From: Haloferax mucosum ATCC BAA-1512
GTDB lineage: Archaea > Halobacteriota > Halobacteria > Halobacteriales > Haloferacaceae
DNA: 64,000 bases
Assembly: GCF_000337815.1 (NCBI RefSeq)
Contig: NZ_AOLN01000018.1
Span: 496,001 to 560,000, forward strand
Reading direction: 5' to 3'
This document shows, in pieces, positions 18,361 to 19,934 of this stretch. The position numbers and the translations under genes are program-made. Each line of letters starts with the position of its first letter. Position 1 is the first letter of the stretch. The notes beneath the pieces are model-generated. The model worked only from the letters and a program-made list of their open reading frames with translations. It was not told the DNA's origin and searched no databases.

Positions 18361-19512
18361 TCAGTCTTCGAAACACTCTCGAATCGGTTCGAGTACGTCC
18401 TCGGCGACCGCATACGGGTCGGTCTGCTTTTCGACGACGGCGTCCACGAACGCCTCGATACCGCCTCGCCGTTCGAGTTCGGCTTCGAGAAGTTGGTTGA
18501 CGTCGCTTCGGAGCAGTTGCCGAATCTCCTCGCTCGCGCGCTGACGGGCTTTCACCGTCAACTTGCCCGACTCGGCGAGGTACGCGTAGTGCTCGTCGAG
18601 TGCCTCGACGAGCGTGTCGATTCCCTCGCCGGTCGTAGCGACGGTTTGGATGACTTCGGGCGTCCACACGGCGGGCGTGTCGTCCTTCCCGTCTTCCCCC
18701 GCCTCCCCGTCGGTGTCGCCGTCGTGGTGTCCGTGACCCGCGTCGCCGCTCTCGTGACCGCCGTCGTGGTGTCCGTGGCCGTTGCCACCGCTTCCGTGGC
18801 CGCCCGACCCGCCGAACGCGCCAGCGCCGTGGTGGCCCGTATCGAGATTCGCTCGCGGGTCGTCGCGGAGGTGAATCATCTCCTGTAACTCGGAGACGGT
18901 CCGCGAGGCACCTTCCATGTCGGCTTTGTTCACGACGAACACGTCGCCGATTTCGAGGATGCCGGCTTTGAGCATCTGCACGTCGTCGCCGCTTCCGGGT
19001 TGGACGAGGACGACGACCGTATCGGCCGTCTTCACCACGTCAACTTCGTTTTGTCCCGCGCCGACCGTCTCGATGATGATGCGGTCTTTTCCGAACGCGT
19101 CGAGGGCTTTCACGGCATCCGCGGTCGCGGTCGAAAGCCCGCCGAGTTGCCCGCGGGCGCTCATCGACCGGAAGAACACGTCCATGTCGCCGACGTTCGA
19201 AGCCATGCGAATACGGTCGCCGAGGACCGCACCGCCGGTGTAGGGCGACGACGGGTCAACGCCGATGATGCCGACGGTCTCGCCTTGGTCGCGGTAGTGT
19301 TTGGCGAGTTTGTCCACGAGCGTCGATTTCCCGGCACCGGGACTGCCCGTGATGCCGACGACTGAGGCGTTGCCGGTGTGCGCGTGAATCTCCGAGACGA
19401 GGTCTCTGTAGCCGGGCGTCTGCGATTCGATTTTCGTGATGACACGTGCGAGCGCTCGGTGCTCGCCGTCGAGGAGTCGCTCGACGAGGTCGGATTCGAC
19501 CGCCCGATTCAT
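18361..19512 (-). CDS. meaB: Methylmalonyl-CoA mutase-associated GTPase MeaB with His-rich insertion
   Basis: 383-residue G3E-family GTPase that guards and reloads the B12 enzyme methylmalonyl-CoA mutase. The start at 19512 (MNRAVESD) lies 2 bases after the stop of the B12-subunit gene. The P loop GSPGAGKST is near residue 50, the switch ETVGAGQNEVD near 143 and NKAD near 184. Between about 210 and 250 (DNA about 18715-18841) there is a Gly/His-rich insert with ten histidines (GHGHHDGGH, GHGHHDGD) that ordinary MeaB lacks; it makes the protein about 55 residues longer than usual. The histidine tract suggests metal binding. Confidence 0.95.
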   Translation of the reverse strand: MNRAVESDLVERLLDGEHRALARVITKIESQTPGYRDLVSEIHAHTGNASVVGITGSPGAGKSTLVDKLAKHYRDQGETVGIIGVDPSSPYTGGAVLGDRIRMASNVGDMDVFFRSMSARGQLGGLSTATADAVKALDAFGKDRIIIETVGAGQNEVDVVKTADTVVVLVQPGSGDDVQMLKAGILEIGDVFVVNKADMEGASRTVSELQEMIHLRDDPRANLDTGHHGAGAFGGSGGHGSGGNGHGHHDGGHESGDAGHGHHDGDTDGEAGEDGKDDTPAVWTPEVIQTVATTGEGIDTLVEALDEHYAYLAESGKLTVKARQRASEEIRQLLRSDVNQLLEAELERRGGIEAFVDAVVEKQTDPYAVAEDVLEPIRECFED

Positions 19513-19514
19513 CG

Positions 19515-19934
19515 TCACGTTCGCTCGGGGGCGTTTTCCTTCACGAAGTCGATGGTCTCCTGCATCGGCGTCCCGGGACCGAAGATCGCATCGACGCCCT
19601 CTTCGAGCAGTCCGGGGCGGTCTTCTTCGGGGATGATACCGCCGACGATGACGAGCGTGTCGTCGAGTGCGCCGTACTCTTCGAGTCCCGCCATAACCTT
19701 CGGGACGAGCGTGTTGTGTGCGCCCGAGAGGATCGAAATCCCGAGCACGTTCACGTCCTCTTGGACCGTCGCTTGAATGATTTCGTCGGGGGCACGGTGA
19801 AGTCCGGAGTAGATGACTTCGAATCCTGCGTCGCGGAAGGCACGCGAGATGACGTGCGCACCGCGGTCGTGGCCGTCGAGTCCCACCTTGGCGATGAGAC
19901 ACCGGATCGTTCGCTGTTCGGAGTCCGCGCTCAT
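19515..19934 (-). CDS. mcmA2: Methylmalonyl-CoA mutase, B12-binding subunit
   Basis: 139-residue cobalamin-binding domain encoded alone, as usual for archaeal split mutases. The start at 19934 (MSADSEQR) was chosen because it begins the domain and upstream in-frame sequence looks noncoding. The B12 motif D-x-H-x2-G appears as DGHDRG near residue 18, followed by SILSGAH near 63 and VGG near 92. The catalytic large subunit is not in this window. The pair with meaB is translationally close (2-base gap). Confidence 0.93.
   Translation of the reverse strand: MSADSEQRTIRCLIAKVGLDGHDRGAHVISRAFRDAGFEVIYSGLHRAPDEIIQATVQEDVNVLGISILSGAHNTLVPKVMAGLEEYGALDDTLVIVGGIIPEEDRPGLLEEGVDAIFGPGTPMQETIDFVKENAPERT

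Follow-up and report, generated by a model that had tools for sequence, protein, structure and literature searches.

Nearly all MeaB GTPases of haloarchaea carry a loop, most often with a conserved GHHG core, followed in Haloferax mucosum by a His-rich tandem repeat

A 64,000-nucleotide stretch of the Haloferax mucosum ATCC BAA-1512 genome (contig NZ_AOLN01000018.1, positions 496,001 to 560,000; the window) contains a G3E GTPase gene, meaB, whose product is interrupted by a Gly/Asp-rich insert studded with histidines, raising the question of whether this protein handles a metal or uses its histidines in some other way. An earlier note on this DNA took the insert for a device that stores or delivers a metal, perhaps cobalt, for the B12-dependent mutase. 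The ten histidines on which that proposal was built are confirmed: minus-strand positions 18715-18841 encode MeaB residues 224-266, which include exactly ten His (227, 228, 239, 246, 248, 249, 253, 260, 262, and 263). The motif GHGHHDG is likewise present twice, at residues 245 and 259, but the part of the insert that relatives conserve is a different one, GHHG, which lies upstream of it in the protein.

The gene product is a bona fide MeaB. It scores 327 bits against TIGR00750, for which the curated cutoff is 240.75 bits, and 291 bits against PF03308 (23.1 bits), and comparison of its AF2 model with solved structures returns MeaB and MMAA as the nearest. With the characterized MeaB/ArgK/MMAA proteins (TIGR00750; M. 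extorquens MeaB, 2QM7 and 8DPB; human MMAA, 2WWW and 8GJU), it shares the family score, the overall fold, the P-loop, the ETVGxGQ and NKAD motifs, the spacing of the switch III Asp/Gln/Lys residues, and the genomic pairing with a mutase B12 subunit. ETVGAGQ, NKAD, D176, Q179, and K182 are invariant in our MeaB alignment and spaced as in M. extorquens, in which the switch III residues are D182, Q185, and K188 (PMC9974510); the protein thus has both the G3E motifs and the switch III residues that mark membership in the family. The stop codon of the B12 subunit gene lies 2 nt upstream of the meaB start, and by coordinates the two genes are also neighbors in the other haloarchaea checked, so that the genomic association of meaB with methylmalonyl-CoA mutase holds. 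The genome encodes two paralogous mutase large subunits (C1:361787-363325 and C18:455179-456759), neither of which adjoins meaB, and two such paralogs occur in nearly all haloarchaea checked. A Natrinema zhouii plasmid (L399) carries a cluster of a second mutase large subunit, a B12 subunit, and a meaB encoding a protein in which the loop is short and acidic and lacks HH. The family profile search also picked up the MeaB of Haloferax volcanii.

Table 1. Positions in the window of meaB, its neighbor, and the parts of the insert
Feature	Coordinates	Strand	Remarks
meaB	18361..19512	-	383 aa, methylmalonyl-CoA mutase-associated G3E GTPase; PF03308 6.8e-87, TIGR00750 8.2e-98
Methylmalonyl-CoA mutase cobalamin-binding subunit, separate gene	19515..19934	-	TIGR00640 3.4e-50, PF02310
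Helix, residues 202-217, after NKAD; the insert exits from here	18862..18909	-	AF2 secondary structure
Insert, residues 218-281 (~64 residues), predicted disordered	18670..18861	-	pLDDT <50 for residues 224-273
GHHG core, residues 226-229	18826..18837	-	HH in 191/201 insert-bearing haloarchaeal MeaBs; G226, H227, H228, and G229 at least 90% conserved in alignments
42-nt repeat copy 1 (coding order), GHGSGGNGHGHHDG	18759..18800	-	
42-nt repeat copy 2, GHESGDAGHGHHDG	18717..18758	-	

The insert is placed between the helix that follows NKAD and the strand leading to the G5 region (residues 286-291). Seven bacterial MeaBs and the solved homologues have a loop of ≈5-17 residues at this site, with neither an HH dyad nor a His-rich run; solved and plasmid-borne bacterial MeaBs thus contrast, in their short and His-less loop, with the ≈64 residues bearing GHHG and a His-rich repeat found here. 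In the AF2 model of the Haloferax protein, pLDDT falls to ≈32-47 across the insert, values that are no more than suggestive of disorder, since our two models were built on shallow alignments of 53 and 67 related sequences. The GHHG segment also stays below a pLDDT of 50 in the model of a short-insert homologue, for which the mean is 77.

We compared 209 distinct haloarchaeal MeaBs with 35 from other archaea of the same phylum, counting an insert as present when it reached at least 20 residues. It is found in 201 of the 209, with lengths from 28 to 93 residues, and in all 15 Haloferax genomes. The HH dyad occurs in 191 of these 201 inserts, nearly always as GHHG, against a mean of 50 and a maximum of 65 when the residues of each insert are shuffled. 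Its start lies exactly 14 residues into the loop in 124 of the 191, the most frequent position; the dyad is retained across all insert lengths, and is encoded by a mixture of CAC and CAT codons, even though the insert outside GHHG is hardly alignable among haloarchaea. The haloarchaeal MeaB with a conserved GHHG loop is therefore a real, class-wide variant of the family, one for which we found no description in the open literature searched. In a quick tree built without the insert, with one support measure and some long branches, GHHG is present in L284, the deepest branch of the haloarchaea, and the members with short loops sit in nested positions, suggesting that the insert was probably ancestral in haloarchaea and lost several times later, in family f2 and elsewhere.

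Loss of HH, whether together with the insert or within it, is seen in seven family f2 sequences, in Halolamina, and at L187, L190, L226, L288, and L295. Halolamina and its genus-mates (L062, L066, L067, L221, L229, and L232) read TGGFEKPDHPD where Halorubrum reads TGHHGFEVPDHPD, which resembles a precise loss of both histidines. The HH-less lineages retain the mutase B12 subunit, where checked, and an adenosyltransferase, so the dyad is not essential. Several simple correlates were also considered. The idea that the insert tethers MeaB to a split mutase was rejected as the sole cause because a separate B12 subunit is also found in lineages with short loops (family f2 and the archaeal families f21 and f28). 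Presence of HH does not follow the adenosyltransferase, since all 33 genomes examined, whether they have HH or not, contain the PduO type; nor does it follow the number of mutase large-subunit paralogs, for genome G093 (L190, with an insert lacking any His) has one and other HH-less genomes have two.

Outside haloarchaea, a comparable loop occurs in the family f12 MeaBs (loci L122-L147), which we take to be from Archaeoglobaceae. These proteins have 27-42 residues at the site of the haloarchaeal insert, and the tenth and fifteenth loop residues, Leu and His, are invariant in 27 of 27; without gaps, they fall in register with the haloarchaeal Leu10 and the second His of the dyad. This loop (THADE) differs from the haloarchaeal one in being conserved over its full length, in having one His rather than a dyad, and in lacking the Gly/Asp/His tail. 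One loop histidine may thus be older than the haloarchaea, with the caveat that homology of such short segments is unproven.

Because the HH segment has low confidence even in the better, short-insert model, packing within the monomer does not explain its conservation, and the models suggest that the dyad probably binds something outside the MeaB monomer. We take helix 202-217, from which the insert emerges, to be the counterpart of MMAA helix 7, a placement made by hand from the MMAA sequence. It agrees with the positions quoted for D292, D340, and D344 of the human protein (PMC10356863). In human MMAA bound to the mutase, helix 7 (residues 296-311) shifts by ≈23 Å, and R300, R301, S308, S336, D340, and D344 touch the substrate domain of the mutase (PMC10356863). 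On this correspondence, the loop should hang beside the mutase that MeaB has wedged open, and by homology the insert should adjoin the mutase whenever MeaB is docked.

In one reading, GHHG would bind a protein surface, either that of the mutase large subunit or that of the adenosyltransferase; the contacts would be hydrogen bonds and stacking, metal would play no part, and the tail would be irrelevant. The proximity of the motif to mutase-contacting helices, its character as a short conserved motif within a predicted disordered loop, and the Archaeoglobaceae loop, in which one His is conserved within a segment of greater regularity, all point this way; for a docking motif it would, however, be unusual to have HH between Gly residues and no hydrophobic or charged residues alongside, and covariation of HH with residues of the B12 subunit was weak and scattered over positions, none of it convincing. 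We consider this metal-free reading somewhat unlikely. In the other, which we prefer, the histidines would act as ligands. The losses of HH, the same lack of convincing covariation with the B12 subunit, the shallow model alignments, and the fact that an adjacent His pair alone makes a weak metal site count against that reading as well.

The remainder of the insert behaves quite differently from its core. Its 42-nt unit is present in 2.1 tandem copies that are 79% identical, so the two GHGHHDG motifs are not independent, both having been made by one tandem duplication; a pattern search found no second occurrence of the GHGHHDG-coding DNA in the genome. Among the 191 dyad-bearing inserts, 90 have no His beyond the dyad, and extra His amount to a median of 2%. 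The number of extra His ranges from 0 to 11 across the 15 Haloferax genomes, one Haloferax species (L013) having none, and a state of at least four extra His requires 12 parsimony changes. To judge from these comparisons, the His-rich tail has arisen repeatedly (in Haloferax, Halorubrum, and others) within a variable Asp/Gly tail and is dispensable in evolution, and the repeat of this species looks lineage specific. Against the refutation test of the earlier note, which asks among other things whether close relatives lack the insert or its His, the outcome is thus split: all 15 Haloferax have the insert, but its His-rich part is not conserved.

These features might suggest that the whole loop is an acidic Gly/Asp linker which the protein tolerates and its His-rich part the functionless product of slippage in a GC-rich repeat, a reading favored by the 42-nt duplication, by the free variation of the tail in length and sequence, by the many inserts without tail His, and by the single base that separates Asp (GAC) from His (CAC). 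It leaves the near-universal dyad unexplained, though, and histidine is rare in comparable sequence: in flanking haloarchaeal genes, 67 of 77 other Asp/Gly linkers have at most one His per 40 residues. At the 1.7% His rate of those linkers, finding eight His among the 53 residues that follow the dyad has a probability of ≈3e-6, and at the bulk His rate ≈5e-5; the null set came from pattern searches and 508 ORFs in the flanks, of which a few are apparently in the wrong frame, making the comparison conservative because such ORFs inflate His in the null. Moreover, none of the nine differences that separate the repeat copies lies in a shared 19 nt that encodes most of GHGHHDG (P 0.0018), a clustering that hints at constraint unless the true unit is simply shorter. 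As tail His varies while other Asp/Gly linkers are His-poor, the loop appears to be a favored, but not obligatory, place for histidine, and we regard the purely neutral account as unlikely.

HypB- and UreG-type nickel sites contain cysteine. A nickel site of this type between protomers has been described (PMC7689651). No cysteine is found in the G domain of Haloferax MeaB, whose only Cys is residue 380, and the protein lacks the CxCC metal motif of COG0523 metallochaperones. The likeness to His-tract G3E GTPases drawn by the earlier note consequently stands only in part. MeaB shares with COG0523/CobW, HypB, and UreG the G3E GTPase domain and a flexible Gly/Asp/His-rich tract, and it contains a formal His stretch, HxHxHxH with 0-4 residues between the histidines, which has been proposed as a marker of metallochaperone activity among G3E proteins (PMC2770081). 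H246, H248, H249, and H253 form the stretch here; one is present in 20 of the 209 haloarchaeal MeaBs (Haloferax, Halorubrum, and a few others) and in 0 of 35 outgroup sequences. In the metallochaperones, however, such stretches lie at the termini or near the C-terminal domain (PMC2770081), whereas the stretch of MeaB sits within the G domain, after G4 and before G5, and is accompanied by neither CxCC nor another Cys site.

The client of MeaB also differs, because it takes a preformed cofactor: MeaB acts on finished AdoCbl, and there is no sign that MeaB binds AdoCbl (PMC9164220, PMC9974510). That the loop is a true metallochaperone element, storing or delivering cobalt (or Ni or Zn) for B12 or the mutase in the manner of CobW, HypB, or UreG, is accordingly very improbable in our estimation, despite the His stretch and the comparable tract in another GTPase of this genome. 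This protein, the sole other CobW-family GTPase found in the genome, is of the COG0523 type, with GCICC and a Gly/Asp/His-rich tract, HGDGDDSHRHGHGHNTSH, before its C-terminal domain (L354, C11:522300-524400), so that a COG0523 protein with CxCC is already present. The cobalt storage and delivery claimed by the earlier note is unsupported, given the finished cofactor, the missing Cys sites, and a tail that is absent or weak in most haloarchaea and dispensable in evolution.

Metal binding as such is a separate matter. Co and Ni resins retain Haloferax proteins through His-rich stretches that these proteins natively carry (PMC5746218, PMC8576121), among them the His-rich linker of PitA, for which an ortholog with fewer His can substitute (PMC5746218, PMC8576121, PMC11169840). 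Like MeaB, PitA of Haloferax volcanii is a haloarchaeal protein that belongs to a cofactor pathway and natively bears a flexible, His-rich linker, yet it has an unrelated fold (ChdC fused to an ABM-like domain), and its linker joins two domains instead of forming a GTPase loop. By analogy with this precedent, metal binding by the MeaB insert is plausible. We found no account of a His-rich MeaB or of metal binding by MeaB in the open literature searched. Elsewhere in the genome, a MoaB-like molybdopterin-binding protein (MoCF_biosynth, PF00994; L352, C13:115300-117300), also a cofactor-pathway protein, has a very Asp/His-rich N-terminal tail of ≈75 residues, and HGHxxxH tracts occur in a small DUF7550 protein (L353, C18:319800-321800) and a DUF5810 protein (L355, C7:65200-67200).

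With moderate to low confidence, we consider it most likely that the insert contributes to the surface facing the mutase a conserved histidine motif that acts as a ligand or in docking, and that the repeat is an auxiliary metal binder, probably a weak one. The best explanation as a whole, with a probability of roughly 0.4, is more specific: GHHG would be a His ligand motif at that surface, tuning docking or gating, with the His tail as an auxiliary. The flexible loop would have been an ancestral haloarchaeal addition, grown from the end of the mutase-facing helix. Its working part would be GHHG, a short His motif that is exposed and that persists while the sequence around it drifts. Once MeaB docks on the mutase, both histidines would serve as ligands, either for a partner or for a divalent metal that the two protomers of a MeaB dimer might share, and would in this way tune docking or the gating of AdoCbl loading. 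The GHGHHDG tail arose by in-frame tandem duplication where the loop tolerates change; its affinity for Ni, Co, or Zn is probably real but weak and multivalent, and its role would be auxiliary or dispensable, not that of a cobalt store. A bolder version seems to us highly unlikely: the conserved HH of the loop would reach inside the mutase once it has opened and become a transient ligand of the cobalt in a cobalamin that is arriving or damaged, or else of a metal that bridges the two MeaB protomers.

The literature examined contains no report of a MeaB or MMAA that binds either the cofactor or a transition metal. A His dyad conserved throughout the class, in a loop that is predicted to be disordered and would lie next to the docking face for the mutase, would add a new regulatory or ligand element to B12 trafficking. 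Were the dyad to ligate the cobalt of cobalamin, haloarchaeal MeaB would touch its cofactor directly, something not known of any MeaB. When Haloferax proteins are purified by Ni or Co affinity, His-rich MeaB may also turn up as a contaminant, like PitA and Cdc48d. Haloferax volcanii offers a genetic model in which the role of the dyad is testable.
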